DNA of 64,000 nt from Acidobacteriota bacterium. GTDB taxonomy: Bacteria > Acidobacteriota > Terriglobia > Bryobacterales > Bryobacteraceae. The stretch lies in contig CANIVU010000010.1 in assembly GCA_947470805.1 (NCBI GenBank), forward strand, positions 1-64,000, written 5' to 3'. The notes beneath the pieces were generated by a model that made no database searches, was not told the DNA's origin, and was given only the letters and a program-made list of their open reading frames with translations. Positions 44,734-61,280 of this stretch are shown piece after piece (position 1 is the first letter of the stretch; each line of letters opens with the position of its first letter). A program made the translations under genes and the position numbers.

Positions 44734-45279
44734 ATGGAAATCTCCTCCCTTGATGACGCGGCCCTCGCCCTCCGAATCCCCGCCGGCGACCCCACCGCGG
44801 AAGCCGAACTCTTCCGCCGCATGGCTCCCCGCGTCCATCTCTACGGCCTCCGCCACCTCCGCGATCGCCACGCCGCCCAGGATCTCTCCCAACAGGTCGT
44901 CGTCACCGTCCTCGAAGCTCTCCGCGCCGGTCGCCTCCGCGAACCTGAAAAGCTCGCCTCCTTCGTACTCGGCACCGCAAAAATGATCGTCCTCGACATG
45001 CGCCGTGGCGCCGGACGCAGAAAACACCTCCTCGAAACCTTCGGTGCCAGCGTCCCCGAACCCGCTCCGCCACCACTCCCCCAACTCGATCACCAACATC
45101 TCACCCGCTGCCTGCAAAATCTCAAGGAACGCGAACGCGCCGTCATCGTCATGTCGTTTTACGACGAACAGTCCAGCGACGAAGTGGCCCGCTCACTCGG
45201 CGTCTCCGAAGCCAACGTGCGCGTCATTCGCCACCGCGCCATCCACCAGCTCCGCGATTGCATGGGCGTGGCCGCATGA
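44734..45279 (+). CDS. ECF-type RNA polymerase sigma factor
   Basis: 181 residues. Region 2 (AEAELFRRMAPRVHLYGLRHLRDRHAAQDLSQQVVVTVLEALRAG, with the DLxQ core-binding helix) and region 4 (LKERERAVIVMSFYDEQSSDEVARSLGVSEANVRVIRHRAIHQLRDCM, helix-turn-helix) are clear, with an acidic-proline linker between. Its stop overlaps the anti-sigma gene ATG (ATGA at 45276-45279), the usual sigma/anti-sigma arrangement. It probably activates its own promoter in the gap shared with the ODP gene. Confidence 0.93.
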   Translation: MEISSLDDAALALRIPAGDPTAEAELFRRMAPRVHLYGLRHLRDRHAAQDLSQQVVVTVLEALRAGRLREPEKLASFVLGTAKMIVLDMRRGAGRRKHLLETFGASVPEPAPPPLPQLDHQHLTRCLQNLKERERAVIVMSFYDEQSSDEVARSLGVSEANVRVIRHRAIHQLRDCMGVAA

Positions 45280-45860
45280 GCTGCCCAACCCCCATCAGTG
45301 CCGCCATCCTCGCCGACTACTGGCTCGCCGCCCTCACCGAAGCCGAAGAACAGGCCACCGAGGAACACCTCTTCGCCTGCGACGAATGCGGCGCCCGGCT
45401 CCGCGAAATCATCGCCCTCGCCGAAGAGGTACGGCGTGTCGCCCGCGCCGGTTCCCTCCGCATGGTGGTCAACGATTCAATCCTGCAACGCGCCGCCAAC
45501 GAAGGCCTCCACGTCCGCGAATACGCCCCGCCCCCCGGCGGCGCCGTGCAATGTACCGTCACCGCCGAAGACGATTTTCTCATCGCCCGCCTCGCCGCCA
45601 ACCTCTCCGGTGCCAAGCGAGTCGATCTCAGCCTCTGCAACGAAGACGGCGTCGAACACCTCCGTCTGCCCGATATCCCGTTCCATGCCGCCGCCCCCGC
45701 CATCCTCTACCAGGAGTCCATCCCCTGGGCCAAGGCCATGCCGTCAAACCATCTCCTCGTCCGTATGATCGCCTTCGATGCCACGGACCGTGAACACCTC
45801 CTCGGCGAGTACCACTTCCACCACACCCGCTCCCTGCCCGGTCCCGGATCGCCTCCCTGA
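45276..45860 (+). CDS. zinc-binding anti-sigma factor (ZAS-like)
   Basis: 194 residues from ATG 45276. Residues ~10-45 form an anti-sigma domain with EEHLFACDECGARL, the H-x3-C-x2-C zinc motif of ZAS proteins. The remaining ~140 residues are soluble and beta-rich (AVQCTVTAEDDFLIARLAANL … LLVRMIAFDATDREHLLGEYHFHHTR) with no transmembrane helix, so it senses a cytoplasmic signal. The thiol/zinc centre makes redox control likely, in line with the adjacent di-iron protein. Confidence 0.82.
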   Translation: MSCPTPISAAILADYWLAALTEAEEQATEEHLFACDECGARLREIIALAEEVRRVARAGSLRMVVNDSILQRAANEGLHVREYAPPPGGAVQCTVTAEDDFLIARLAANLSGAKRVDLSLCNEDGVEHLRLPDIPFHAAAPAILYQESIPWAKAMPSNHLLVRMIAFDATDREHLLGEYHFHHTRSLPGPGSPP

Positions 45861-47468: not shown

Positions 47469-47765
47469 ATGGCCACCCACCGGACTACCGTCAACATATC
47501 CATCACCCCGGAGCTCGACGCCTTCCTGCAAAGTCGCGTAAAGTCCGGCCGGTATCAGACAACGAGCGAAGTGGTGCGGGATGCCCTCCGGCTCCTGGAG
47601 CGCCATGAGCAGGACCGGGAACAAGCCGTCCATCAGCTCAAAGCGAAGCTCGAAAGAGGCGCCGCCCAGGCTGAGCGCGGGGAACTGCTCGATGGCGGCG
47701 AAGTCTTTGAAGAACTCCGGGAAATGATCGAAGAACGCCGCCGCTCCAAGGCTTCGAAAGAATGA
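47469..47765 (+). CDS. parD: ParD-family antitoxin
   Basis: 98 residues. MATHRTTVNISITPELDAFLQSRV begins a ribbon-helix-helix DNA-binding domain (VNISITPEL beta-strand; SGRYQTTSEVVRDALRLLERHE helices). The rest is a charged helix that wraps the toxin. Its TGA overlaps the parE ATG (47762-47765, ATGA). Expected to repress its own operon through the palindrome just upstream. Confidence 0.9.
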   Translation: MATHRTTVNISITPELDAFLQSRVKSGRYQTTSEVVRDALRLLERHEQDREQAVHQLKAKLERGAAQAERGELLDGGEVFEELREMIEERRRSKASKE

Positions 47766-48073
47766 GCCGAATGTTTGTCCTCACCCCGGAGGCCAGAAGC
47801 GATCTGAAAGAGATCCTACTAGCCATCGCGGAGGACAACCCCACTGCTGCCGAACGCATCCGCGAAGAGTTCCTGGAAGGTCTGCAATCGCTCGGCCGCT
47901 CGCCCGCCATCGGGCATTACCACGACGAACTTCTCGGCAGAAAGTATCGCTTCTGGAACTTCTACTCCTATGTCGTGGCCTACACCTGGGAGGCCAAGCC
48001 GATTCAGATAATTAGCATCGTACACGGTGCCAGAGATCTCGCCGCCTTCTTCAATGAGCGAATGATCCAGTAA
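47762..48073 (+). CDS. parE: ParE-family toxin
   Basis: 103 residues of the RelE/ParE fold: LTPEARSDLKEILLAIAEDNPTAAERI, RSPAIGHYHDELLGRKYRFWNFYSYVVAYTWEAKPIQIISIVHGARDLAAFF. The YRFW…YVVAY…I.I..I.HGARD pattern is typical for ParE gyrase inhibitors. Complete and apparently functional, paired with parD by an ATGA overlap. Confidence 0.9.
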   Translation: MSRMFVLTPEARSDLKEILLAIAEDNPTAAERIREEFLEGLQSLGRSPAIGHYHDELLGRKYRFWNFYSYVVAYTWEAKPIQIISIVHGARDLAAFFNERMIQ

Positions 48074-48559: not shown

Positions 48560-51295
48560 TTATTCGGGAGTTCTCTCCACACTAATGTACTTTTCATTCG
48601 GCGACGCCACATCCAACTCGCCCTTCTTCGCATACGGATTCCGCACCACAAATCCCAATCGCGCCCACTCCGTCACCATCTTTAAATCACCCGCCAGCGT
48701 CTGCGGCACTCCGCGCGACCAGCCCAGAAACTGCAGATTCGGCTTGCCGTCGGCAACAGATACAGCTTCGTAAGTTTGCAGCGGTCGGTGCGCCGGCCAC
48801 CACATCGCATCCCACGTCTTCTGCTCCTGCTTCATCCACGGATCGTTATCGTCGACAGGATTGATCTGATTCCACATCTCATAGGTAATGTCGATTGGCT
48901 GGATCGTGCACTCGTTGAAATCCGCCTGCCACGGCACCGCCGAATACTTGGTCAAATCTCCCGGCTGGAGCCCGCGGCTGAAGTCGTTGCCCGTGCTGAG
49001 TTCCACATCGGTATTCGCCAAATAGGCCTGCTCGGGAATCTGGTTGGCATTCTGATTCGCCGCCGTCTGGCTGAACGCATAGAAGTCCGGATCGGCCTTC
49101 AGGCGGTACGGCTCCTTGTATATAGACGGGTTCCGAATCACCCAGCACACCTCCGCGCCCGGAAAGAACGCGCCGCCCAACATACCCATCAGCACGCCCC
49201 GGTCCAGGTCGCGCCCGCTCTTCCCCAGCAACCCCGTATAGGGATGGAACGGATCCACCGCCGTATCCGGCACCCAGCCCTCGTCCACCTCGTTGTAGAA
49301 TTTCCCCTCGGCCCACTGGCGAAGAATGAACAACTGGTAGTCCAGCAGCCGCAGGAACTTCGACGGCAGTTCGTTGCTCGTCGGATTGTCCCCGGCCAGC
49401 AGCGGCATCAGCGGAACCCGGAACAGCCGCGTGCCCGGCCGGCCTGCCGTCTTGAAAACGTTCTCTTCCCCCGGCTTGCGCAGCAGCCCGTACAGATACT
49501 GCCGGGCGTGCAAGTACGGATCGTTCTTCGATTCCGCCAGCGCGCGGGAATACGCAACGGTCAACAAACGGCCATTCCGGTAGACACCCATCGCCGTCTC
49601 GGCGATCTCCACAACCGCCTCCGTCACAACCTCCCTTAGCGTGCTGCCGTCCGCCACCAGTGCCTCACTGCCTGCCCATCGAGCCAAAGCCGCGGCAATG
49701 AACGCCTCCAACCCACGCAGCACGTCGCCACGGAACCGGTCCCGCGCCGCCGTGTACGCCGCGCCATCGTCGCGATATCGCCCCGTCCATGCCGCCCGAT
49801 ACTCGTCCGGCCCCAGTTCCGGACCGTTCGGCAATACGGCCATCGCAAACGCCGCCGCCGCCGTTTTCAGCGCCGTCGCGTGATTCTCGTGAGAGTCCGC
49901 CGCCGCAAACTGCTGCCGGGCAATTCCCCGCGCCGCCCGGATCTGATGAGGCAAATCGGACTTCGCGCCGCCCCCCGGTTGTGCCACCGCCGTCCTGGCA
50001 TGCCGGCGCAGCGCCTGTTCCACAACGTCGTCGAACACATGCAGCTTCAACTCGATCTCTTCCAGGAACAGCGTGCCGCCCTGGTTCGCCGTCGCCGCGG
50101 CCTTCTCCCGCTCCCGCAGCAGCACCTTGCTCACCACCGGCGGCACCGACAGCTTCGTCGGATCAAAGCTGCCCCGCTCCGTCTGATCGTGCGGCGCGTT
50201 CGACAAATTCAGAATACCGTTCAGATACTTGAGCTCATCCACACGGAACAGAATCGGCCAGACGTCCCGGTAGAACCACGGCCGGTACTCCGAATTCCAG
50301 TCCAGCGGACCAGCGTTCCAATGGTCCAACGCGCCGGCGTTCGAAATGTCGATCTTCTGCGGCGCATCGAACGTGCCCGGCACGCCATACAAATCGGTGC
50401 GATAAGCGAACTTGCGGACCGCCAGATCGTACACCACCTCGTCCAGCGTGATCATGTCGAGGATCTCGGGACAGTAGCGCGGGTACCCCACCAGCACCCA
50501 TGCCGGATCTTCCACGTCGATGTACCGGAGCGCCGTCACGTCGTCGGAATACATCACCAGCCGCGCCATCACCGGCCCGTCGGAGATATCGTCGAACCAC
50601 CCGTCGTTATTGGCGTAATCCGCAATCCGCGGCTCACCCAGGCCGCTGTCGCACGACCCGGAATTCCCATGCCCGCCAAGCACCAGCAGCCGCCCGGCAT
50701 TGTCGGTCACCAGTTCCCCCAACGTGTCGATCTCCCGCGGCGCCAGGCCCTTCGGCGGGAAGACCGTCGCGTAACAGTCGCTGTCCTGATCGAACGACGC
50801 GCGGCGCCGGTCGGTGCCGTTCACATACCGCGGACCGGCGTCAATCATGAGCCTGCGCCGGGCGTCATCGCCGGTGATGGACGCATTGCGAAGCGGTGCA
50901 TCCGCCGCATAGCCGTGCTCGCCGTTCAGCCCGTGGAACTCGTACCACGCCGCCTTCTTGTTCGCCAGATGCACGCGCCACTGAATGTCCACCAGCTTGC
51001 CGCAGTTGCCGCCGCCCCGCACGTCGGCAGTCAGTTCCAGCGGACGCCCTTCCGGCGATGCGTCGTCGTACACGTAGACCTGAAACCGCGCCGCCTGCCG
51101 CTTGATGCGGCCCTGCTCGTCCTTGAACTTGCTCACCACCTGCTCTTTCCCATAGGGAGACAGGACGGGATTTCCGTTGCTGTCGCACTCCACGGGAAGT
51201 GCCGCGGGCGCCTCCGGACCGATATAGAACTCCTCGGGGCTGTCGCCCAGTCGCGCCACTCCAATGGCCGGATGAATGCGGTAAACCGGTTGCAT
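48560..51295 (-). CDS. LodA/GoxA-family CTQ-dependent oxidase
   Basis: 911 residues from ATG 51295 (GGAG 5 nt upstream; ATG 51298 also possible). The start MQPVYRIHPAIGVARLGDSPEEFYIGPE is the family's signature N-terminus. GGAFFPGAEVCWVIRNP holds a candidate CTQ cysteine (~Cys717) and VPWQADFNEC a candidate tryptophan (~Trp789), 72 apart (65 in Marinomonas LodA). Family enzymes carry a cysteine tryptophylquinone formed from their own Cys and Trp and oxidise lysine, glycine or other amines to aldehyde/keto acid, NH3 and H2O2. It is about 180 residues longer than LodA, mainly mid-protein. There is no signal peptide. Last gene of the oxidase operon; LodB is two genes upstream. Confidence 0.9.
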   Translation of the reverse strand: MQPVYRIHPAIGVARLGDSPEEFYIGPEAPAALPVECDSNGNPVLSPYGKEQVVSKFKDEQGRIKRQAARFQVYVYDDASPEGRPLELTADVRGGGNCGKLVDIQWRVHLANKKAAWYEFHGLNGEHGYAADAPLRNASITGDDARRRLMIDAGPRYVNGTDRRRASFDQDSDCYATVFPPKGLAPREIDTLGELVTDNAGRLLVLGGHGNSGSCDSGLGEPRIADYANNDGWFDDISDGPVMARLVMYSDDVTALRYIDVEDPAWVLVGYPRYCPEILDMITLDEVVYDLAVRKFAYRTDLYGVPGTFDAPQKIDISNAGALDHWNAGPLDWNSEYRPWFYRDVWPILFRVDELKYLNGILNLSNAPHDQTERGSFDPTKLSVPPVVSKVLLREREKAAATANQGGTLFLEEIELKLHVFDDVVEQALRRHARTAVAQPGGGAKSDLPHQIRAARGIARQQFAAADSHENHATALKTAAAAFAMAVLPNGPELGPDEYRAAWTGRYRDDGAAYTAARDRFRGDVLRGLEAFIAAALARWAGSEALVADGSTLREVVTEAVVEIAETAMGVYRNGRLLTVAYSRALAESKNDPYLHARQYLYGLLRKPGEENVFKTAGRPGTRLFRVPLMPLLAGDNPTSNELPSKFLRLLDYQLFILRQWAEGKFYNEVDEGWVPDTAVDPFHPYTGLLGKSGRDLDRGVLMGMLGGAFFPGAEVCWVIRNPSIYKEPYRLKADPDFYAFSQTAANQNANQIPEQAYLANTDVELSTGNDFSRGLQPGDLTKYSAVPWQADFNECTIQPIDITYEMWNQINPVDDNDPWMKQEQKTWDAMWWPAHRPLQTYEAVSVADGKPNLQFLGWSRGVPQTLAGDLKMVTEWARLGFVVRNPYAKKGELDVASPNEKYISVERTPE

Positions 51296-51309
51296 CATGT
51301 CTCCTGTAG

Positions 51310-53328
51310 CTAGTCCAGAAAGTTCAGCGAAAGGCCTTCCAGCCTCAGCAAATCGGGATCGCTCTGATAATCGGCGCCAATCACCACCAGCGTGATCGCG
51401 AGCGACTTCGCACCGGCGTCCAGCAGCCGCTTGGCGCATGCCGACACGTTGATCCGGTGATTCCGCGGCGTATTGTGGCTCCGCGCGCGCAGGTCGTACT
51501 TACGGGCCCGCGCCGGTGGCGGGTCGCAGTGTCCCGGCCCCCCGTAGCAGGACCCGTGGCCAAACACCGCGATGAACCCCGCATAATTGGCGTGTGTCAG
51601 CGGTGTCGAGGCGTCGGCGTCCTTCAAGTTCAGAAACACCCGGATGAAGCACGACCGTTCCAGCTGCGGCACGCGGTGCAGCCGTACCTCCGCCCGCCCG
51701 AACGACGCCCGCACATTCTTCGGCACCGCCATGTCCTTCGAAACGAACCGGCCCACCGGCGACCCCAACCCCACCTTCACTATCTGCGTGCAGCGCACAT
51801 ACTCGTACCCGAACCGCTGCATCTCCAGCGTCTCGCCAACGGTGTAGTTCCACGGTGTCAACACCGCGTCCTTATCCACCGGCTCCGCGTTCGGGTGCAG
51901 TTGCTGCCACTCCCACCAGATGCGGTCGATGTTGGCGTGCACCGGCCAGAAGACCGGATCGTACGACGCGGTCAAATTGCTGAACATATCGCCGAACGGA
52001 GGCTGGCTATACAGGTCCTTGCGCGAATGGAACCGGCGGCCGGCCACCTGGACCGCCCGGTTGCGATCGGCCGCCTCCCCGCCTTGCCCCGCGTTCTTGT
52101 TCTGCCCGCCCGTCCAGATGTGCATCGTGTTGTGCGGGTTCTGATCCAGAAAGCCGAATGAATCGTCGTAGATGCTGCCGCCGCCGAAATCGCGGTAGGT
52201 CCGGAGCTGCATGATCTGCTCCATATCGTCCTTGGTCGGATAGTGGTAGTGGACTCTGTCGTTGATCGAGATCGGCTTTCCGCTGCCGTCAAAATACTCC
52301 GCCGGATAGCGTAGCGGATACCACAGCGAGTTGGCCGCCAGCAGCACGTCAATCAGACGGTTGCGCTCGTCCGGCGTCGGCGTGAACAGCTTGCCCACCG
52401 CGTCCAGGAACGTGTTCGTCGACGTATACAGCACGCCCACTAGCCCGCTCAGCTGTTGCACCTGCGCAGCGCTGAATCCCACCGATGAAAGATACGTCAA
52501 CGACTCCGGCCGCAGCACCGCCTTGAAGCTCTCCGGAATCACATTGCCGTGCAGCGGATCGGTCGGCTTGTAGATGTCCATCGTCCAGTCCCACCACGGC
52601 ACCGTCACATCGGGGCAGTGGTCCTGCAGCGCCTGCTCGAACTCGTACAGGTACACGCGGTGCCACGGCAGGAAGCGCTCCCACCCATGCTGGCAGTGGT
52701 TCTGGTGAATCAGCGCCAGGCCGTTATAGCTCCGCGAATCCTCGGGCCACTTGTTCAGCTCGTACAACTCCCGCATCGCGTACCGGAACTTCTCCAACTG
52801 CAAATCGCTCATGCAGTCCAGGTTCATCCGCTGCCGAGGCTCGCCGTGCTGATACAGATACTCGTTCGCCTCCGCCTCGGAAAGCTGCACCGCCTCCGCC
52901 GGCGCCGGTCCCGCGCTGATCGTCACCAGTCCCGACGAGCCGCCGACAAACTCCAGTCGCTTCGGCTCCGCCGCCGTGCCACAGCCCCCGTCAATCCACT
53001 CGGCGATAAACGCGATATCGGATTCCGATACCGCCGTCCCGCCCCACGGTAGACGCGGGAAGCGCAGCCCGTCGAATGGCGCCTGCCCCCGCAGGCCGGT
53101 AATCAACCCGGAGCGCTCGGAGCGGCTCTGCTGCTGCGCCCCGCCAGTGGAACAACAGGACTTCACCCCTTCGCGAGGAGCAATCAGCGGAATCCCATAC
53201 AGCGTCGCGGTCAGGAACTGGTCCGCCGGCAGGTCCCAAAAACGGCCGAGTCCGGCATAATCGGCGGGACTATCGCCTGCGGCCGCGGTCAGGATCGCCT
53301 TCACGCGCTCATACTGCTGTTTGGACAT
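51310..53328 (-). CDS. tyrosinase-family type 3 copper oxidase
   Basis: 672 residues from ATG 53328 (GGGAGA 5-6 nt upstream). CuA ligands lie in IHQNHCQHGWERFLPWHRVYLYEFE (~207-231) and CuB ligands in NPHNTMHIWTGG and DPVFWPVHANIDRIWWEWQ. An N-terminal ~130-residue extension (LPWGGTAVSESDIAFIAEWIDGGC, CCSTGG) and a ~130-residue C-terminal beta domain with CxxxxCDPPPA flank the core. It should hydroxylate or oxidise phenols or catechols to quinones. There is no signal peptide. It overlaps the LodB gene by 20 nt and ends 14 nt before the LodA start. Confidence 0.92.
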   Translation of the reverse strand: MSKQQYERVKAILTAAAGDSPADYAGLGRFWDLPADQFLTATLYGIPLIAPREGVKSCCSTGGAQQQSRSERSGLITGLRGQAPFDGLRFPRLPWGGTAVSESDIAFIAEWIDGGCGTAAEPKRLEFVGGSSGLVTISAGPAPAEAVQLSEAEANEYLYQHGEPRQRMNLDCMSDLQLEKFRYAMRELYELNKWPEDSRSYNGLALIHQNHCQHGWERFLPWHRVYLYEFEQALQDHCPDVTVPWWDWTMDIYKPTDPLHGNVIPESFKAVLRPESLTYLSSVGFSAAQVQQLSGLVGVLYTSTNTFLDAVGKLFTPTPDERNRLIDVLLAANSLWYPLRYPAEYFDGSGKPISINDRVHYHYPTKDDMEQIMQLRTYRDFGGGSIYDDSFGFLDQNPHNTMHIWTGGQNKNAGQGGEAADRNRAVQVAGRRFHSRKDLYSQPPFGDMFSNLTASYDPVFWPVHANIDRIWWEWQQLHPNAEPVDKDAVLTPWNYTVGETLEMQRFGYEYVRCTQIVKVGLGSPVGRFVSKDMAVPKNVRASFGRAEVRLHRVPQLERSCFIRVFLNLKDADASTPLTHANYAGFIAVFGHGSCYGGPGHCDPPPARARKYDLRARSHNTPRNHRINVSACAKRLLDAGAKSLAITLVVIGADYQSDPDLLRLEGLSLNFLD

Positions 53329-54268
53329 TGGAATCTCCCTCGTATTGCTGCCGGCGCGCCCAGAACGGAGCATCGGGCCAGCGGTTTTCCTGCCTGTAAA
53401 AGTGCCGGTGCGCGGAGCGGTAATGCGCATACTCGGCTTCGATGTAGCGTCGATACTTCGTCAACGCGCCCGGCACGCCGGACACGGCATCGCGAATCGT
53501 GTAGGCAGCAATCCGCCCCATCCGCAACGCCCGCGGAATCCCTTGCGACGACAACGGGTCAAACGCCGCCGCCGCGTCGCCCACCGCCAGCCAGTCCTCG
53601 CCCACGCAAGGCGACAGATGCTGCGAACAAGCCGACAAGACCGTCTCCGCGCTCTCGCGTCCGCCCCGGTACAGATCCGGATCCGTCATCCACGCCCGGA
53701 CATACCGGTTACCCGGCAGCGGCGTCGAGTACCACCACCCCGATTCCTGCGCCTCCACATACGTGCAGGCCATCGGTTGCGAACCCGCCACCACGGTCCC
53801 GGCCGCGATCAATCGGTCATCGGCGATCCGCCGCGCCCCCCGCGACACCCCATACACCGCCGAGCGGCCCGTACAGTCCGCCACGAAATCGAACGCGCCC
53901 GCAGCCTCAGCCGCAATCTCAATTCCCGCCGCCCGCAGCGCCTCCACGAGCATCGCATCGAACGCCGGCCGGTTCAGATGCCACCCCGGCCCCTGCGCCG
54001 AAAACAAATACTCGTTGTCGTAAGGCTCCGCCGATCCCCACGCCGCCCGCGTCCCGGCGGCCTGTGCATGACCGCCCGCCAGAAAACGCTCCCAAAGCCC
54101 CAGGCCCCGCAGCAGCGCCTGCGCACCCGGCGCCAGCGTCTCCCCGGGCTGCCAGCTACGCGTAGCCGCCCGGTGCGCAACAACAATCTCCCACGCCGGC
54201 TCCAACTGCCGCAGCGTCAGCGCCGTGGACGCCCCAGCCGGACCCGCCCCCCAGATCCCGACCCGCAC
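53309..54268 (-). CDS. LodB-like FAD-dependent oxidoreductase (CTQ maturation)
   Basis: 319 residues from GTG 54268, one base after the preceding stop (TTG 54298 would overlap it). VGIWGAGPAGASTALTL is the FAD dinucleotide motif, and LAVGDAAAAFDPLSSQGI is the second FAD motif in the form seen in LodB and tryptophan-halogenase relatives. YRRYIEAEYAHYRSAHRHFYR follows near the C-terminus. In Marinomonas, LodB is needed to convert the LodA Cys/Trp into CTQ; here it probably matures the LodA-like protein two genes downstream. Confidence 0.87.
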   Translation of the reverse strand: MRVGIWGAGPAGASTALTLRQLEPAWEIVVAHRAATRSWQPGETLAPGAQALLRGLGLWERFLAGGHAQAAGTRAAWGSAEPYDNEYLFSAQGPGWHLNRPAFDAMLVEALRAAGIEIAAEAAGAFDFVADCTGRSAVYGVSRGARRIADDRLIAAGTVVAGSQPMACTYVEAQESGWWYSTPLPGNRYVRAWMTDPDLYRGGRESAETVLSACSQHLSPCVGEDWLAVGDAAAAFDPLSSQGIPRALRMGRIAAYTIRDAVSGVPGALTKYRRYIEAEYAHYRSAHRHFYRQENRWPDAPFWARRQQYEGDSNVQTAV

Positions 54269-54269
54269 G

Positions 54270-54715
54270 TTACGGCTTCTTCTCTTTCCAAACCGCAATC
54301 CACGACGCCGTCACCCCGGCCGGCGCCACCGTGCCCGGCGCGGAGCCGCTATGCGGGATCGTGCGAACAATCGTCCCCACAATCGCCGGCACCTGGTCCT
54401 GCCCGTTCGGCCACGCCGGAACGACGAAGCCCAGATAATCGTAGATCCACTCTTCGCCGGCCACGATGCCCTTGCCCTGAAACCGAACCGCATTCGGGTA
54501 GCCGTAGTTGATGCTCCCGTTGCAGGCCAGCCCCCAGCCCGTGTCCCCGATCTTGCCCCGGAACACGCCCGCCGGCGCGTCATCGATCGTTATATCGTTA
54601 TATAACCGCTCCCGAACAGGTACTGATCGTACGGCGTCTTGAGGTCGGGATCGTTGTGGAAACTCCGATACGTCCACACCCCCGTCAGGCTGCCGATTTC
54701 TGGATTCTGACTCAT
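54270..54715 (-). pseudogene. small orphan protein of the oxidase operon, frameshifted by an 8-bp duplication
   Basis: ATG 54715 has a strong GGAGG 6 nt upstream and opens MSQNPEIGSLTGVWTYRSFHNDPDLKTPYDQYLFGSGYITI, then stops. The 8-mer CGTTATAT occurs twice in tandem at 54588-54595 and 54596-54603. Removing one copy restores GSGYITIDDAPAGVFRGKIG and a single 145-residue frame through GLACNGSINYGYP, EEWIYDYLGFVVPAWPNGQDQVPAIVG and WIAVWKEKKP to 54270. The intact form looks like a small all-beta protein (lipocalin-like); similar small proteins accompany bacterial tyrosinase/oxidase genes, as far as I recall. Either a recent mutation, a reversible switch or an assembly error. Confidence 0.75.
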
Positions 54716-54749
54716 ATCTACCCTCCAATTCGATCGCTCTCTAAATCCG

Positions 54750-56852
54750 TCAATGATGGCTAAAGCCTTCCGACGAACACGAGGCCGGAGCCTTCCCCCC
54801 GGGGAAGTTATCCACGCGGACCAGCTTCATCATGCCCCGATCCTCGTGCGCCAGAATGTGACAGTGCATCACGTAGATGCCCTTGAAATCGGCGAATTTA
54901 TGCCGGATTTTCACCGTCCCGCCCGGCGGAATCGCAATCACGTCCTGCCACACCGGCGAAACGGTGTTCACCGGGTTTCCATTCACTTCCAGCACCTGGA
55001 ACGGGTTGATGTGAATGTGGAACGGATGCGCCGGACCGTTGGCATCATTCGTCAGAATCCAGTCCTCCACCGAATTCACCTGCATGCAGTAGGAGATGTT
55101 GCTGGAATCCTCGAACTGCGTGCCGTCGATCATGAACTTCGGCGGCCCGATCGGGTCGCCCGTCTTCGCCGCTCTTACCCCAGGCCCGTGGCTCATCGTG
55201 AAACTCACCGTGCGCGCCGGAAGCGTCGGCTTTGGCAAATTCGTCAGAAACGCCGGCATCGCCGGATAGGCGGCCTGGTCCGCACCCCCGAACATGCGCA
55301 TCGAGACGGGCGTCCCGGCAACGGCCGCGCGGAACAGCAACTGGTTCCCTTGCCCCCCGCCCAGATCGTTCGGCACAAAGACATCGGCATTCAACGCCGT
55401 CACCGGTGCCTGCACCAGGAAGTCCGCCCGGTTGCCGCCCGCCAGTGTCAACGGCATTGGCCCGTTCATCCCCATCGGCTGCTTCACGTAGTTATCCCAC
55501 GAGAACTGCACCCCGTCCATCGCCACCTGCCGGATGGTGAACCCCTTGGCCACCAGCGCGGAAATCCACGTTGTGTCCAACGTTCCCTTGTTCCCGCCGC
55601 CCATTGCGTTCACGAAACGCCACAGCTGGACCTCGCCCGGCGCCATCGGAATCTGCGGCCCCTTCACGCCATTGATGAACTTCTGATTGTTGCCGCTATT
55701 CGAGTTGTCGCCGACAGGGCCGCCGCCCTTGGTCACCATCAGGTTCTGCTTCACGCTGAACTGTTGGAACACCAGAACCCGCTCCACAAACTTCTGGCCC
55801 TGCGGCAGTTGCCGGCTGAAGAACGCGCGAATCTTGTCGTCGTAGTCGCCCTCCACCACCAGCGCCCCGGCCAGCCCGTTGAAAATATGCAGCGATGTCG
55901 AACCGTGCTTGTGCGCGTGGTACCACTGCGTCCCTGGTGCCTGTCCGGCCTGCGGCGGCCCGCCCGGCAGCGGCGCGCGCGGCAGCGTCAGCGTGTTCGG
56001 GAACGCGCCCACCACGTACTGCGGCCACCCATACTGCACAATGCCGGTCGGCTTCGCCGGCGCCGCGCCGTGATCCATCCCCGCGTGGACCCCCGTGCGC
56101 AGAATCAGGTCGCGGTTCTTCGTCCAGAATTCGGTCCCCGCCTTCGCCACCAGTCCCCCCGGCTGTGCCGACGCAAGCTGGTTTGCCGTGCAACCCATCT
56201 GCGCAATCTGATACTCCGGTGGTAGCTCCGCCCAGCTCCCCGGCGGATTCGGCTTATCGAAGATCTTCTTGAACATCCCCTGCCACTGATCCTGCTTGGT
56301 GGTCTTATCGGGAATCACTTCAATCAACACGTTATCGCCCAGCCCGGACGGGCTGGTGTGCGTGCCGTGGAAATGCAGGTTCCCGGAGTTCGACCCGTGG
56401 AAACAGTTGGGAAACGTGTCGGTGAAAGGATACCCCGGCCCGCTGGTGTCGCACTTCCCCGGCGCCGTCTCCGGGAACTGCTCGTTATCCAACCGGTTCA
56501 GGAACATCAGGTTCATCCGTCCGCCGGCTCGGACACGGAGCGTTGGCCCCGGCCCGTACACGCTGGTGTTCACGACGCCCTTCGCCGCCGGATCGTACAG
56601 ATCCCAGCCCTGGAAGTAGCGCCGGACCTGCCCGTCCGATGGGCCGCCGGAAAGTTCGATGACGCCGTTCAGCGTCGGCTGGCCGCCCGGCTTCAGCACC
56701 TTTGTAAGTAGTTCCCCAATGACCGGCACCGTCGGCAACTGCGCGAAGGCTTCGGTCGGCAACAGGTACCCGGCGGCAATCGTGGAGGCCGCCAGGCGGG
56801 CACGGCGCAGGAACTGGCGCCGCGAGGCGCTCTGGGATTTGGAGGTGTTCAT
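54750..56852 (-). CDS. multicopper oxidase (laccase/bilirubin-oxidase-like), Tat-exported
   Basis: 700 residues; SRRQFLRRARLAASTIAAGY is a Tat signal. All four copper motifs are present: GNLHFHGTH, TQWYHAHKHGSTSLH, HPFHIHINPF and HCHILAHEDRGMM, the last with Cys and axial Met for the type 1 site. It is larger than CotA-type laccases because of loops around residues 150-260. It oxidises phenols, aromatic amines or metal ions with reduction of O2 to water, in the periplasm. GGAAG lies 6 nt before the ATG; it follows the cupredoxin-like gene by 10 nt. Confidence 0.95.
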   Translation of the reverse strand: MNTSKSQSASRRQFLRRARLAASTIAAGYLLPTEAFAQLPTVPVIGELLTKVLKPGGQPTLNGVIELSGGPSDGQVRRYFQGWDLYDPAAKGVVNTSVYGPGPTLRVRAGGRMNLMFLNRLDNEQFPETAPGKCDTSGPGYPFTDTFPNCFHGSNSGNLHFHGTHTSPSGLGDNVLIEVIPDKTTKQDQWQGMFKKIFDKPNPPGSWAELPPEYQIAQMGCTANQLASAQPGGLVAKAGTEFWTKNRDLILRTGVHAGMDHGAAPAKPTGIVQYGWPQYVVGAFPNTLTLPRAPLPGGPPQAGQAPGTQWYHAHKHGSTSLHIFNGLAGALVVEGDYDDKIRAFFSRQLPQGQKFVERVLVFQQFSVKQNLMVTKGGGPVGDNSNSGNNQKFINGVKGPQIPMAPGEVQLWRFVNAMGGGNKGTLDTTWISALVAKGFTIRQVAMDGVQFSWDNYVKQPMGMNGPMPLTLAGGNRADFLVQAPVTALNADVFVPNDLGGGQGNQLLFRAAVAGTPVSMRMFGGADQAAYPAMPAFLTNLPKPTLPARTVSFTMSHGPGVRAAKTGDPIGPPKFMIDGTQFEDSSNISYCMQVNSVEDWILTNDANGPAHPFHIHINPFQVLEVNGNPVNTVSPVWQDVIAIPPGGTVKIRHKFADFKGIYVMHCHILAHEDRGMMKLVRVDNFPGGKAPASCSSEGFSHH

Positions 56853-56862
56853 GTCCGGCTTC

Positions 56863-57438
56863 CTAGTTGATCGTGATCTGAAAGGTATCGGTCAGGACGT
56901 TGCTCAGCGCGTCCTGGATCGTCACGCGCAGCAGATACGTGCCTGGAAGCGTGGTGGAGCCCGTCACCTGCGGGCCGTTGTCGCCACCATCGGTCACCTG
57001 CACGCCCGCCGGCAGTTCGCTGTATGCCACCTGAAACGTGTAGTTAGGCTTGCCGCCGGTAATCAGCGCCGTCGGCGGCAGGACGTTGCCGTTCCGGGTA
57101 ATGCTGATCTGCTCATTCGGCACAAAGAAATCGTTCACGATCTCCAGAATTCCTGTCGCTGCGGGCTGCAGGCTGCATGTGTACTTCACTTGGAACACCT
57201 CGCCTTGCTTGAGCGTCGGGGCTGAGCCTCCGGGAGCCTGTGTGTTGGACGTCGTTCCCGGGGCAATCGGCCCAGGGAGTTGAAACGCGTCGGCAGGTGT
57301 CACAGGGACAGGGAAATGGGGCTTAGTGTCCTTATTCGTCCAGAAGACCAGTTGGCTCAGCGTCACCCCGACAGTCGGGAATACCGCGACGCCGGAAGGA
57401 CCTGCCTGAATCACAACGTTAGGTGGCTGAATCTGCAT
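56863..57438 (-). CDS. cupredoxin-like / beta-sandwich protein, first gene of the oxidase operon
   Basis: 191 residues from ATG 57438 (GAGG 6 nt upstream; ATG 57444 is too close). Two beta domains: VVIQAGPSGVAVFPTVGVTLSQLVFWTNKDTKPHFPVP resembles a cupredoxin half, and LPAGVQVTDGGDNGPQVTGSTTLPGTYLLRVTIQD an Ig/cadherin-like half. A His (KPHFPV) and one Cys (KYTCSLQP) could be copper ligands, but a full type 1 set is not evident. There is no signal peptide. It may donate electrons or copper to the multicopper oxidase, or act as a substrate or carrier. Confidence 0.6.
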   Translation of the reverse strand: MQIQPPNVVIQAGPSGVAVFPTVGVTLSQLVFWTNKDTKPHFPVPVTPADAFQLPGPIAPGTTSNTQAPGGSAPTLKQGEVFQVKYTCSLQPAATGILEIVNDFFVPNEQISITRNGNVLPPTALITGGKPNYTFQVAYSELPAGVQVTDGGDNGPQVTGSTTLPGTYLLRVTIQDALSNVLTDTFQITIN

Positions 57439-57536
57439 GCACATCCTCAGAAGGAAATTTATAAATCAGAACCGTAATTCGACGATATAAACAATTTTTC
57501 GTGGCTATAAAATCAGCCCGAAAAGTCCACTGCGAA

Positions 57537-57565
57537 AGTATACGAGTGAACAACTTTGGCGTCAA
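57537..57565 (-). promoter_or_regulatory. sigma-70 promoter of the oxidase operon
   Basis: On the minus strand TTGACG (57560-57565), 17-nt spacer, TATACT (57537-57542): close to consensus. Transcription would start near 57530, giving an AT-rich leader of ~92 nt before ATG 57438. The -35 box lies in the last codons of the CPVC membrane-protein gene. Confidence 0.7.
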
Positions 57566-57957
57566 TGAAATTCCGCGGCGCACCCTGGCGAACTCTGTCC
57601 CCGTCGCCGCCACGCCAGCCCCGTGGCAACCAGCAAAACAACCGCCACGCCCGGCCACAAAACCGCAGGGGACCACCGCGCCGCCGCCAGTAGCAACGCA
57701 CCCGGAAAAGCCCCGGCAATGCTCGAAAAAGACAGCTTGCCTCCGCGAAGCGCCACGGCGAACAGCAGCACGCTGGCCCCGAGCAGAGCGAAAGCCACTA
57801 CCCGAAGCAGTAGCCCATCCACGGGTAGCGCCACGCCCGCCGCCGCCAGCAGCGCACCCGCGCAGACGGGACACTTCGGAAGAAGTAAAAAACTGGACGC
57901 CGTAAGAATCCCGGCAGGAAAATGGCGATTGATTTGGCCCATGTTTCGACAGATCAT
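57562..57957 (-). CDS. small membrane protein with CPVC motif (MerC/MerT-like topology)
   Basis: 131 residues from ATG 57957 (GGAG 4 nt upstream). Four hydrophobic segments; the first, AGILTASSFLLLPKCPVCAGALLAAAGV, carries KCPVC in or at the membrane, as in MerC-type metal importers. The others are LRVVAFALLGASVLLFAVAL, AGAFPGALLLAAARW and WPGVAVVLLVATGLAWRRR. A Cu or Hg thiolate transport role is plausible beside a copper-oxidase operon, but this is inference. The N-terminal MGQINRHF could be an alternative start (57942). Confidence 0.65.
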   Translation of the reverse strand: MICRNMGQINRHFPAGILTASSFLLLPKCPVCAGALLAAAGVALPVDGLLLRVVAFALLGASVLLFAVALRGGKLSFSSIAGAFPGALLLAAARWSPAVLWPGVAVVLLVATGLAWRRRGQSSPGCAAEFH

Positions 57958-58049: not shown

Positions 58050-61000
58050 ATGCTCCCAATACGTATGGGCCTTCCGATGCTCCGAAATATCGCGCTGCTC
58101 ACCATCGCCTGCGTGCTGCCCCTGACGGGCGCTGGACCCGAGGGCGCACTGCAGGGAACCGTTCGCGACGCGAGCGGCGGCGTAATCACCGGGGCAACCG
58201 TATCCGCAAACCGGGCTGACACCGGCTGGTCCTGGCGCGCGACGACCGATGCCGCCGGGCAATACCGCATTCCCGCCATGCAGCCCGGCCAATACGCCGT
58301 CCGCATCGAGGCCGACGGCTTCCGCGCCCTGGAGGCCCCGCGCGCAACTATTCAGCTCGATCAAATCACCCGCCTCGACGCTGTGCTCGAAGTCGGCCGG
58401 CAAATCGAGGTCGTCAACGTCGAAGCGCCCCTACCCGGGCCCGATAACAACTCCGCCACCCGTAAGTGGACCGTGCCGCCCCAGCCCATCGCCGCCATTC
58501 CGCTCAACGGACGCCAGTTTCTGGACCTCGCCATGCTCGTGCCCGGCAGCGTCCCCGCGGCCGCCGGCACACAGGGCGCCGGCTTCAGTGTCAACGGAAT
58601 GCGCTCGCAATCGAACGTCTACCTGCTCGATGGCATGAGCAATGCCGACACGCAAACCAACCAGCCGCTGAACCTCTTCCGCATCACCGACGCTGTGCAG
58701 GAGTTCTCCGTCCAAACCAGCGCCGTCCACCCGGAACACGGCCGCGGCACCGGCGCGCAAGTCAACGTGCTCACCCGCAGCGGCAGCAATCAGTTCCACG
58801 CCAGCCTCTTCGAGTACTTCCGCAATACCGTCCTCAACGCCTCCGATTTCTTCACCAATAAGCTCGGCGGCATCAAAAGCCCCATAAACCGCAACCAGTT
58901 CGGCGCCACGCTCGGTGGCCCGTTGCACCGCAACCGGACATACTTCTTCAGCTCCTGGGAAGGCTTCCGCCAAAGCGCGCCCACCGTCACCGCCACTCTC
59001 ACCCCCACCCTCGCCCAGCGCGCCACGGTAACCGATTCCATCTCCCGCAAACTCCTCGCCTTCTATCCCCTCCCCAACGTCGAAGGCGGCCAGCTCTACA
59101 CCGCCAACGTCCCCAACGCCGATAACGACAACACCGCCCTCATCCGCATCGACCACACTCTCTCCACCCGCGACCACCTCACCGGACGCTGGACCCAGTT
59201 CTGGGGCGTGGGCTCCACACCCGGCGCCACCCCGCTCTCCGGCGGCAACGAAGGGCCCTCCTCGCAGGTCGCCGCCATGCTCCACGAACGCCACGACTTC
59301 TCCCCCACAACCACCGGCGACCTCCGCCTCGGCTTCTCCCGCTACGCCGTCTCGCGCCTGCCGCAGGACGCCACCTTCGACGCCCGCTCTCTCTTCACCG
59401 CCGCCAATGGCGCGCCCCTGCCCGGCGTGCCCGCCACGAGCGGACTGCCCTCCATCTCCATCGCCGGCGGTTTCCCCGCGCTCGGCGCCGGTATGAACTT
59501 CCCCCAAGGCCGCACTGCCAACACGTTCGAGCTCATCGGTTCCATTCGACAAACCGCGCCCTTCGGAGCCAATCGCCACACCTGGTCCTGGGGCTTCCAC
59601 CTCCGTCGCGAAGATCAGTACCGCTACCTCGACCGCGCCCGCCGCGCCGTCATCAACTTCGCCAACTTTGCCGACTTCGCCCGCGGCCTCGTCAACAGCG
59701 CCACTATCCGTACCGGCAGCACCTACTCCGCCTGGACCCGCCTGCCAGCAAGCTTCTGGTGGCAGGATACCTACCGCCCCCTGTCCAATCTCAGCATCAC
59801 CTTCGGCGCCCGCTACGAGTCGTTCGGTGCCTTAACGGAGCGCACCAAGCGCGCCGCCAACTACATCCCCGGCGTCGGCTTGATCACCGCCGGCACCAAC
59901 CAACTCATCGATATCGACCCGCGCGCCACCGGCCCCGCCGCGCTCCTCCAACGCACCAGCCCTGTGTCCCTCCCCCAAGCCGGCATGTACGCCGATCGCA
60001 ACAACCTCGCGCCCATGCTCGGCCTCGTCTGGACGCCGGGTGCGAACGGGCTGTGGGTCATTCGCGCCGGCGCGCGCCTGGCATACGATGACCTGTTCAA
60101 TAACATCCCGCTCAGCATGGGGCTCGCCCCGCCTGCCAGTCTCCAAACCACCCAATCCGCCAACGTCACCCAACCCGGACGTTTCGCATGGCCCCTTGCC
60201 TTTGACCAGAACGTCCCCCTGATTGCGAACTTCGGGCGCCAGGGCCCCGGCACTCCCGTCAGCGGAATCATCGCCCTCCAGGGCGTCGATCCGAATCTCC
60301 GCACGGCGCGCGCCCTGCTGCATCACTTCGGCCTGCAACGGCAGTTCGGCCGCATCATCGCCGAAATGGATTATCACGGCAGCCAGGGCCGCCAACTCGG
60401 CATCTTCACCGATGCCAACCAGCCCACCGTCATCGTTCGCGATCCAGCCCGGCGCGGTCCCGTCGCCCCCAACGGGCAGCTGTTTCCCGATCCCCGCTTC
60501 GGCCAGATCCAAATCGCCAAGTCGATAGCCAACTCCAGCTACCACGCCCTCACCCTCAGCATGCGCCGCCAATCCGTTTCCGGCGCCTACCTGCAGGCCT
60601 GGTACTCCCTCGGCAAGTCCATCGATACCAACTCCTCCTACTACGGCTCCGGCAATCAGCCCGGTGAGCCCGGCGCGCCCATCGACAATCGCAACCTCCG
60701 GCTCGAACGCGGCCTCTCGGCCTTCGACGCCCGTCACCGCTTCGTCGCCGCCGCCGTCCTGCCCCTGAAAGTCTTGACCCTTTCCAGCGTCGTAACCCTG
60801 CAGTCCGGCACCCCGTTCACCGTCGTCCACGGCGGGCCCGATACCAGCGGCTTCAATCAGTCCACGCAAGGCAGCAGTCCCAACGCCCAGAACCGGCCCA
60901 ACCTAATCGGAGCAGGCCCCGTCCGTCGTGACAATCGCAACCCCGATTCGGCCTTTGACGTCGCCCGCCTCGCCCCCGCGACAGCGGGCCAGCCCGGCAC

Positions 61001-61280
61001 CGCCGGTCGCAACATCCTCACCGGCCCCGGCCTGAACAACATCAATCTGGCGGCCATCCGGCGCATACGCCTCCGCCCCGAAGGAATGTACCTCGAACTC
61101 CGCGGCGAGTTCATGAACCTGCTCAACCACACCAACTTCGCCCAACCCGTCGCCGACCTCAACAATGCCAGCTTCGGCCGCGTCCTCCAGACCGTCGGAT
61201 CCACCACCGCCAACTCCAGCACCGGCGGCTCCACCGGTGGCTCCCGCCTCGTCCAACTCGGCGTCCGGCTCTCTTTTTGA
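58050..61280 (+). CDS. Oar-like TonB-dependent outer-membrane receptor
   Basis: 1076 residues. A signal peptide (LRNIALLTIACVLPLTGAG) is followed by a CarboxypepD_reg domain (LQGTVRDASGGVITGATVSANRADTGWSWRATTDAAGQYRIPAMQPGQYAV). The plug comes next (IPLNGRQFLDLAMLVPGS, GFSVNGMRSQSNVYLLDGMSN, GTGAQVNVLTRSGSNQFHASLFEYFRN), then a large beta-barrel ending in RLVQLGVRLSF with a C-terminal Phe. Starts at 58050, 58065 and 58077 are all possible. Divergent from the CPVC protein and adjacent to the oxidase operon, it may import a chelated metal or a phenolic ligand. Confidence 0.92.
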   Translation: MLPIRMGLPMLRNIALLTIACVLPLTGAGPEGALQGTVRDASGGVITGATVSANRADTGWSWRATTDAAGQYRIPAMQPGQYAVRIEADGFRALEAPRATIQLDQITRLDAVLEVGRQIEVVNVEAPLPGPDNNSATRKWTVPPQPIAAIPLNGRQFLDLAMLVPGSVPAAAGTQGAGFSVNGMRSQSNVYLLDGMSNADTQTNQPLNLFRITDAVQEFSVQTSAVHPEHGRGTGAQVNVLTRSGSNQFHASLFEYFRNTVLNASDFFTNKLGGIKSPINRNQFGATLGGPLHRNRTYFFSSWEGFRQSAPTVTATLTPTLAQRATVTDSISRKLLAFYPLPNVEGGQLYTANVPNADNDNTALIRIDHTLSTRDHLTGRWTQFWGVGSTPGATPLSGGNEGPSSQVAAMLHERHDFSPTTTGDLRLGFSRYAVSRLPQDATFDARSLFTAANGAPLPGVPATSGLPSISIAGGFPALGAGMNFPQGRTANTFELIGSIRQTAPFGANRHTWSWGFHLRREDQYRYLDRARRAVINFANFADFARGLVNSATIRTGSTYSAWTRLPASFWWQDTYRPLSNLSITFGARYESFGALTERTKRAANYIPGVGLITAGTNQLIDIDPRATGPAALLQRTSPVSLPQAGMYADRNNLAPMLGLVWTPGANGLWVIRAGARLAYDDLFNNIPLSMGLAPPASLQTTQSANVTQPGRFAWPLAFDQNVPLIANFGRQGPGTPVSGIIALQGVDPNLRTARALLHHFGLQRQFGRIIAEMDYHGSQGRQLGIFTDANQPTVIVRDPARRGPVAPNGQLFPDPRFGQIQIAKSIANSSYHALTLSMRRQSVSGAYLQAWYSLGKSIDTNSSYYGSGNQPGEPGAPIDNRNLRLERGLSAFDARHRFVAAAVLPLKVLTLSSVVTLQSGTPFTVVHGGPDTSGFNQSTQGSSPNAQNRPNLIGAGPVRRDNRNPDSAFDVARLAPATAGQPGTAGRNILTGPGLNNINLAAIRRIRLRPEGMYLELRGEFMNLLNHTNFAQPVADLNNASFGRVLQTVGSTTANSSTGGSTGGSRLVQLGVRLSF

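Follow-up and report, generated by a model that had tools for sequence, protein, structure and literature searches.

Why should a bacterial operon bring together a copper-containing tyrosinase and a LodA-type oxidase with a predicted cysteine tryptophylquinone (CTQ) cofactor, and do the two enzymes share a pathway? We addressed this question in a genome of the Bryobacteraceae (Acidobacteriota; assembly GCA_947470805.1), using positions 1 to 64,000 of contig CANIVU010000010.1, a stretch of 64,000 nucleotides referred to below as the window. Open reading frames (ORFs) and Pfam/NCBIfam searches placed six closely spaced genes on its minus strand, running from 57438 to 48560 and encoding a cupredoxin-like protein, a multicopper oxidase (MCO), a small protein, a LodB-like flavoprotein, a tyrosinase and a LodA-like oxidase. 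A previous annotation made from the DNA letters (the sequence-only reading) had given gaps of -20 to +34 nt between these genes, and the ORF coordinates agree, at +10, +34, +1, -20 and +11 nt from 5' to 3'; its MCO, LodB-like, tyrosinase and LodA-like assignments are likewise borne out by the family matches. The core of the system is a tyrosinase gene adjoining a LodA-like gene that belongs to one clade, with LodB and usually the small protein encoded nearby. This operon type is real, conserved and already described, and the window carries a rearranged variant of it, apparently mosaic, with a broken small gene.

Relatives were collected by scanning the GTDB genome collection with two short peptides, NKKAAWY and DGWFDDI, as seeds. 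The 85 mapped entries are the window, four LodA loci from its relatives and the best 80 of 253 LodA-relative stretches; the scan was not exhaustive, and its second seed could have enriched for the tyrosinase-linked clade. In 49 of the 85 loci the tyrosinase gene immediately precedes LodA on its 5' side. Besides the window these are distributed over Pseudomonadota (20), Bacteroidota (15), Acidobacteriota (10), Vulcanimicrobiota (2) and Verrucomicrobiota (1), most commonly in the order (MCO)-tyrosinase-LodA-small gene-LodB. LodB is present in 45/49, the other four contigs ending within LodA, and the small gene in 38/49, counting the split copy in the window. In seven more tyrosinase-LodA loci, whose downstream side is visible, no small gene was detected in the mapped DNA, so the small protein seems dispensable. 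The sequence-only reading had made conservation of its gene order in relatives a test of the shared operon. The linkage of tyrosinase to LodA held, in 48 other loci from five phyla and within one LodA clade, but the exact order of the window (small gene-LodB-tyrosinase-LodA) was found in no other of the 85 entries. Among genomes near the window's, few have the operon, LodA_C occurring in 6 of the 101 searched. Homologous tyrosinases also occur on four plasmid records, all rhizobial and one conjugative, which fits horizontal spread. The two plasmids that were viewed (L108 and L109) have the order MCO-tyrosinase-LodA position-small gene-flavoprotein, LodA being annotated as such in L108 and as 'hypothetical' in L109. 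Both operons lie near transposase genes; L108 is the conjugative plasmid, and a gene annotated as DarT family lies nearby. In a Lacihabitans locus (L056) a second, distant LodA-LodB pair sits on the opposite strand beside the tyrosinase-LodA operon.

The LodA-like protein of the window (912 aa; 48560-51298, minus strand) matches LodA_N with 214 bits (cut-off 26) and LodA_C with 133 bits (cut-off 25). It scores 328 bits against the LodA lysine 6-oxidase equivalog and 197 bits against the GoxA glycine oxidase equivalog, below the respective NCBIfam cut-offs of 600 and 750. A Cys/Trp pair able to be aligned with that of LodA had been set as a second test by the sequence-only reading, and the pair is present: C797 (codon 48908-48910) aligns with the CTQ cysteine C516, and W834 (codon 48797-48799) with the CTQ tryptophan W581. 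W860, picked as the tryptophan by distance alone, was rejected, as LodA numbering matches W834 to W581; W860 is a residue specific to the clade. Both CTQ residues are conserved in 46/46 rows of the tyrosinase clade with a letter at the position, and from this alignment the cofactor would form between C797 and W834.

In a LodA tree of 82 rows, built by a quick method and with four short rows dropped (L029, L042, L057 and L059), one clade of 47 members contains all 45 tyrosinase-linked rows long enough to be included, with a support of 100 in the Shimodaira-Hasegawa-like approximate likelihood ratio test (SH-aLRT). The remaining two members (L033 and L058) have a contig edge at their start. Restriction of the linkage to one LodA clade, across five phyla, supports a functional link between both oxidases. 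The clade also differs near its cofactor. Lysine occupies the position of LodA K530 in 30/30 ordinary LodA rows and in 4/47 clade rows, and where a lysine 6-oxidase would have this residue, which we take to have a role in lysine binding, the window has Q811. A further 34 alignment columns have a residue shared by at least 44/47 clade rows but by at most 2/30 ordinary LodAs; among them are E796, H837 and R838, which sit beside the CTQ residues. Together, the loss of the K530 position and these columns argue for a substrate other than lysine. At the C448 position, 43/47 clade rows have Cys, and the window and two others have Phe. The closest characterised protein, LodA of Marinomonas mediterranea (PDB 3weu/2ymw), shares LodA_N, LodA_C, the aligned CTQ pair and a LodB partner, and differs from the window protein in length (726 against 912 residues), in the residue at position 530, in the tyrosinase linkage of the window and in the upstream position of the window's LodB.

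The tyrosinase (672 aa; 51310-53328, minus strand; PF00264, 123 bits) consists of an N-terminal domain, a type-3 copper core and a beta-strand C-terminal domain. The six histidines that we take to be the copper ligands are invariant in 37/37 aligned tyrosinases, and so is a Cys-Cys pair, C58-C59, in the N-terminal domain (residues 1-118). This domain had no Pfam match; a cytochrome-like origin was considered for it and dropped, the fold search having aligned the protein to tyrosinases. A structural model (predicted local distance difference test, pLDDT, 84) aligned in Foldseek to latent polyphenol oxidases, with E-values of 1.5e-13 for the tomato enzyme (6hqj) and 6.5e-13 for the Ralstonia tyrosinase (7xio), and whole-chain template modelling (TM) scores were low, at 0.27-0.29 by query length, with a root-mean-square deviation above 20 Å (23 Å at TM 0.29). 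The window enzyme thus shares with the latent plant and bacterial enzymes the copper core and the C-terminal beta domain, and departs from them in its extra N-terminal domain with the invariant Cys-Cys. The N-terminal domain occurs in 2 of the 101 genomes near the window's, only the two with the operon, in none of the 18 same-genus genomes listed, and in 1 of 396 genomes drawn from the phylum, a weak count with 11 candidates scored per genome. It is possible that this domain, which bears the Cys-Cys, loads copper into the enzyme. In the melC/ppoB tyrosinase operons, according to the part of PMC2855505 available to us, a helper transfers copper; by analogy, a membrane protein with a CPVC motif encoded upstream of the window operon might be a counterpart, the window differing from those operons in the linkage of its tyrosinase to a quinoprotein.

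The sequence-only reading held that LodA and LodB normally form their own pair, a view that overlooks published operons in which tyrosinase and MCO genes are included, and the gene combination as such is not novel. In the accessible part of their paper, Campillo-Brocal et al. 2015 (PMC4417212) describe a LodA 'group ID' in which a small gene, encoding 138-142 aa without a recognised domain, stands between lodA and lodB, the operons also holding tyrosinase and MCO genes; they list 11 microorganisms, one of them an acidobacterium, and one member without the small gene. The window has the gene content of these operons, as found in Bradyrhizobium japonicum USDA6 and others (lodA-like, small gene, lodB-like, tyrosinase, MCO), with the small gene split. 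It departs from them in its order, small gene-LodB-tyrosinase-LodA as against lodA-small gene-lodB, in the cupredoxin-like and CPVC genes upstream, and in parts that seem to come from different sublineages. Our Mesorhizobium relatives have a small gene of 138-140 aa between lodA and lodB, as published, and the window LodA groups with these operons, which fit the group ID description; the comparison was made through these relatives.

What, then, distinguishes the window? Judged from gene trees, its operon looks like a mosaic in which tyrosinase-LodA, small gene-LodB and cupredoxin-MCO derive from three sublineages. For LodA and LodB we used chosen subsets of 35-36 rows, leaving out L028 and L041. 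The window LodA falls with L013 and a Sphingomonas/Mesorhizobium group (support 98/96), and the other group is rejected by the approximately unbiased (AU) test (p 0.0006, 36 rows). Its tyrosinase has the same placement; in a quick tree of 33 rows, joining it to the LodB kin is rejected with AU p 4e-47. LodB, in contrast to this placement, groups with Eremiobacterota, Bradyrhizobium and Solibacteraceae (L037, L051, Bradyrhizobium, L039 and L040; support 100/99) in trees of 78 and 35 rows, and the 35-row set rejects a place among the LodA kin (AU p 0.0165). The C part of the split small gene falls with L051 and L041 (97/93) in a tree of 30 rows without L028, and a place among the LodA kin has AU p 0.007. 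Finally, the MCO is sister to L031 (SH-aLRT 99) in a quick tree with long branches flagged; it is 51% identical to the L031 protein and at most about 30% to others, and L031 also has a cupredoxin-like gene. A mosaic origin may explain the unique gene order of the window, and it looks to be the new element here, the gene combination having been described (PMC4417212, as far as the accessible text goes).

Taking these results together, we narrowly favour the view that the window holds a rearranged, mosaic variant of a group ID LodA operon encoding a joint tyrosinase-LodA oxidation pathway. LodB would act on the LodA tryptophan to give the CTQ between C797 and W834. The tyrosinase, possibly loaded with copper through its N-terminal domain, would oxidise a phenol ring, and LodA would convert an amine, with free lysine an improbable candidate, to an aldehyde while releasing ammonia and hydrogen peroxide. 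Quinone, aldehyde and peroxide could then combine into a product that is cross-linked or antimicrobial. The exported MCO, or in other lineages an exported heme-motif protein, might act on the products outside the cytoplasm or take electrons from them, and the small protein, predicted to be a barrel, could hold a small ligand, its gene being broken in this assembly. A shared pathway of phenol oxidation, amine oxidation and peroxide release, already proposed in the sequence-only reading, remains our interpretation of the gene linkage.

Several points weigh against this view. In the part of PMC4417212 available to us group ID has no reported oxidase activity, and in cultures of one member, Saccharophagus degradans, lysine oxidase activity was not found. 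The MCO is absent from the mapped flanks of 28/49 tyrosinase-LodA loci. From sequence reading, without a predictor, the MCO has a twin-arginine translocation (Tat) type signal and none was seen in the tyrosinase or LodA, so the enzymes may work in different compartments. The broken small gene and shortened LodB could mean that the operon is decaying. As to the mosaic, the AU groups were named after the first trees had been seen, the LodB p-value of 0.0165 is modest, and the window's short LodB sits on a long branch (1.4). L039 has a small protein that falls among the LodA kin, unlike its LodA and LodB, which may mean that small genes move or that so short an alignment is misleading. In L028 and L041 LodB also falls apart from its LodA, with AU tests that were not significant (p 0.058 and p 0.25).

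The linkage could instead reflect shared regulation only, antimicrobial or stationary-phase oxidases being gathered in one operon with no common substrate. In M. mediterranea one histidine kinase regulates tyrosinase, laccase and LodA although their genes lie apart (PMC2855505, PMC4417212), and this species secretes LodA while LodB stays inside the cell (PMC2855505, each paper as far as its accessible part goes). Secretion and co-regulation make a shared role credible, but they fit regulation alone as well. The coming and going of the MCO and the heme-motif protein among loci also agrees with a purely regulatory link. The MCO was found in the mapped flanks of 21/49 loci, the heme-motif protein in 17/49, both in 0/49 and neither in 11/49. 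Fisher's test gives p 6.5e-6 for this exclusion over the 49 loci with kinship ignored, and random pairings on the tree usually left two or three informative independent pairs, with a median sign-test p of 0.25; mutual exclusion of the two proteins is suggestive only. Against regulation as the whole explanation, tyrosinase is present in 45/45 LodA-clade rows with a visible upstream side, and the 34 clade-fixed columns, some of them beside the CTQ residues (E796, H837 and R838), point to a coupled change in chemistry. We therefore regard regulation alone as a possible but rather unlikely explanation.

The heme-motif protein has about 530-640 aa, measured as a stop-to-stop ORF, with a single CMGCHSSAG, and occurs in L044-L050, L052-L056, L061, L081, L015, L036 and L041. 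It is described here as exported, a signal-like start having been read in L015. It had no Pfam match (L048, L036) and no NCBIfam or PDB match (L048), and a search for a homologue elsewhere in the window's genome, run without a positive control, gave no match. Another recurring partner is a DJ-1/PfpI gene, present in the mapped DNA of 9/49 tyrosinase loci, near or within the operon (L016, L017, L025, L027, L028, L032, L034, L039 and L043), and of one further locus; a possible role is the removal of carbonyls.

Alternatively, the window operon may be a decaying, non-functional copy, with its small gene split, its LodB shortened and replaced and its cupredoxin site lost. The small gene (54270-54715, minus strand), which the sequence-only reading took for an orphan beta protein, is not intact. 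An N part of 41 codons and a stop begins with the ATG at 54715 (54590-54715), and a C part lies in a different frame (54270-54593); the ORF apparently used in that reading starts in the wrong frame. Both parts match one ORF in 38/38 relatives with a match. The frame changes where two copies of the 8-nt sequence ATATAACG stand in tandem (54588-54603), and only these two pieces turned up when a second small-protein gene was sought in the genome. The nearest LodA relative, L013, also has a damaged small gene (L013 6902-7183), in which an in-frame deletion removes a conserved WIYDY...IPH stretch. The LodB-like protein (53309-54268, minus strand, GTG start) has 319 aa, shorter than the 358- and 361-position NCBIfam profiles, and its scores of 190 bits for GoxB and 184 bits for LodB are both below the equivalog cut-off of 400. 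In the cupredoxin-like protein the second His is missing. However, LodA, tyrosinase and MCO are full length with their cofactor residues. The C part of the small gene keeps 14 of the 15 residues invariant across 30 aligned relatives, so the break would be recent or an assembly error, and the small gene seems dispensable in any case, given the seven loci in which none was detected. A non-functional copy thus appears distinctly improbable. That the tyrosinase merely helps to build the LodA cofactor through an extra Trp oxidation, with no substrate of its own, would suit its strict adjacency to LodA but is highly improbable, because LodB is needed for that cofactor (PMC4417212, accessible part), ordinary LodA-LodB loci among those mapped have no adjoining tyrosinase, and LodB is kept in 45/45 tyrosinase loci whose contig continues past LodA.

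Within the joint pathway that we favour, the fixed pairing of tyrosinase with LodA, the residues near the cofactor and the recurring partners narrow the search for a substrate to an amine that carries, or reacts with, a phenol. A bolder version is doubtful. Tyrosinase and LodA would form one catalytic unit, LodB and the small protein a swappable module, and the MCO or heme-motif protein an electron acceptor, in a mobile system yielding a cross-linked or toxic aromatic product. LodB has been suggested to act specifically on its partner (PMC4417212, accessible part), and to this the window would be an exception. It therefore offers a natural test of LodB specificity for its own LodA, which bears on how protein-built quinone cofactors arise. 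No paper turned up that dealt with the mosaic, with the N-terminal domain of the tyrosinase or with any of the partner proteins (heme-motif, DJ-1 and CPxC), no search having been aimed at these.

A model of the small protein, made from the relative L035 (pLDDT 80), predicts a barrel of eight strands, with room perhaps for a small ligand. The best PDB match of the model is xenavidin, with an E-value of 0.0076 and TM scores of 0.54/0.66; no PDB match reached E 0.001 or better.

The MCO (54750-56852, minus strand) combines Cu-oxidase domains (Cu-oxidase_2, 91 bits) with four copper motifs read from its sequence, HFH, WYHAH, HPFHIH and HCHILAHEDRGMM, and a twin-arginine signal, SRRQFLRR. The cupredoxin-like gene (56863-57438, minus strand) encodes a cupredoxin-like N-terminal half and possibly an Ig-like C-terminal half. 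Blue-copper sites have His, Cys, His and Met as ligands. The gene is present as the sequence-only reading had it, but its copper site is incomplete, with one His and one Cys (YTCSLQP), Gln in place of the second His and no Met, and the protein had no Pfam cupredoxin match. Its C-terminal half matched only PKD, under the cut-off (E 0.033). The homologue beside the L031 MCO reads YTCSLHP and has He_PIG over the cut-off. Large Mesorhizobium 'cupredoxin' matches align through Ig-like repeats and were dropped by hand.

The CPVC membrane protein (131 aa; 57562-57957, minus strand) has the motif LPKCPVC and no family match above cut-off in Pfam or NCBIfam. Among the mapped loci L059 alone has a homologue, encoded between the MCO and the tyrosinase. 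The PKCxxC motif is found in membrane proteins of 16/85 entries, of one kind in the window and L059 and of another in the remaining 14. One of these 14 is weakly MerC-like, under the cut-offs. A single CPxC family was rejected, since profiles of the window protein and the L048 kind do not find each other and share motif and size only.

A single transcript for the six genes is plausible as a prediction. The proposed consensus promoter, with hexamers TTGACG-17-TATACT (57537-57565, minus strand), is well placed, and it is the placement that speaks for it; such a site is no evidence by itself, as their count equals chance (3 in 16 kb against 3.0 expected in shuffles). Terminator prediction gave no terminator-like site between the operon genes. 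Two minus-strand calls inside the operon stretch, near 55390 and 49340, both fall within genes, and the 7 calls over the region are fewer than the 13.2 expected by chance.

Around the operon, a ParD/ParE toxin-antitoxin pair (window 47469-48073, plus strand; Pfam 42 and 53 bits) is convergent with the 3' end of the LodA gene, and a large outer-membrane barrel protein with a carboxypeptidase regulatory-like domain (window 58050-61280, plus strand) is encoded divergently from the CPVC gene. A sigma-70-type regulator (window 44734-45860, plus strand) is followed by an ORF that reads as anti-sigma-like. Elsewhere the genome has two more tyrosinase-type loci (contigs C20 and C9) and five more MCO loci, all seven lying on contigs C20, C9, C86, C11, C6, C43 and C211.

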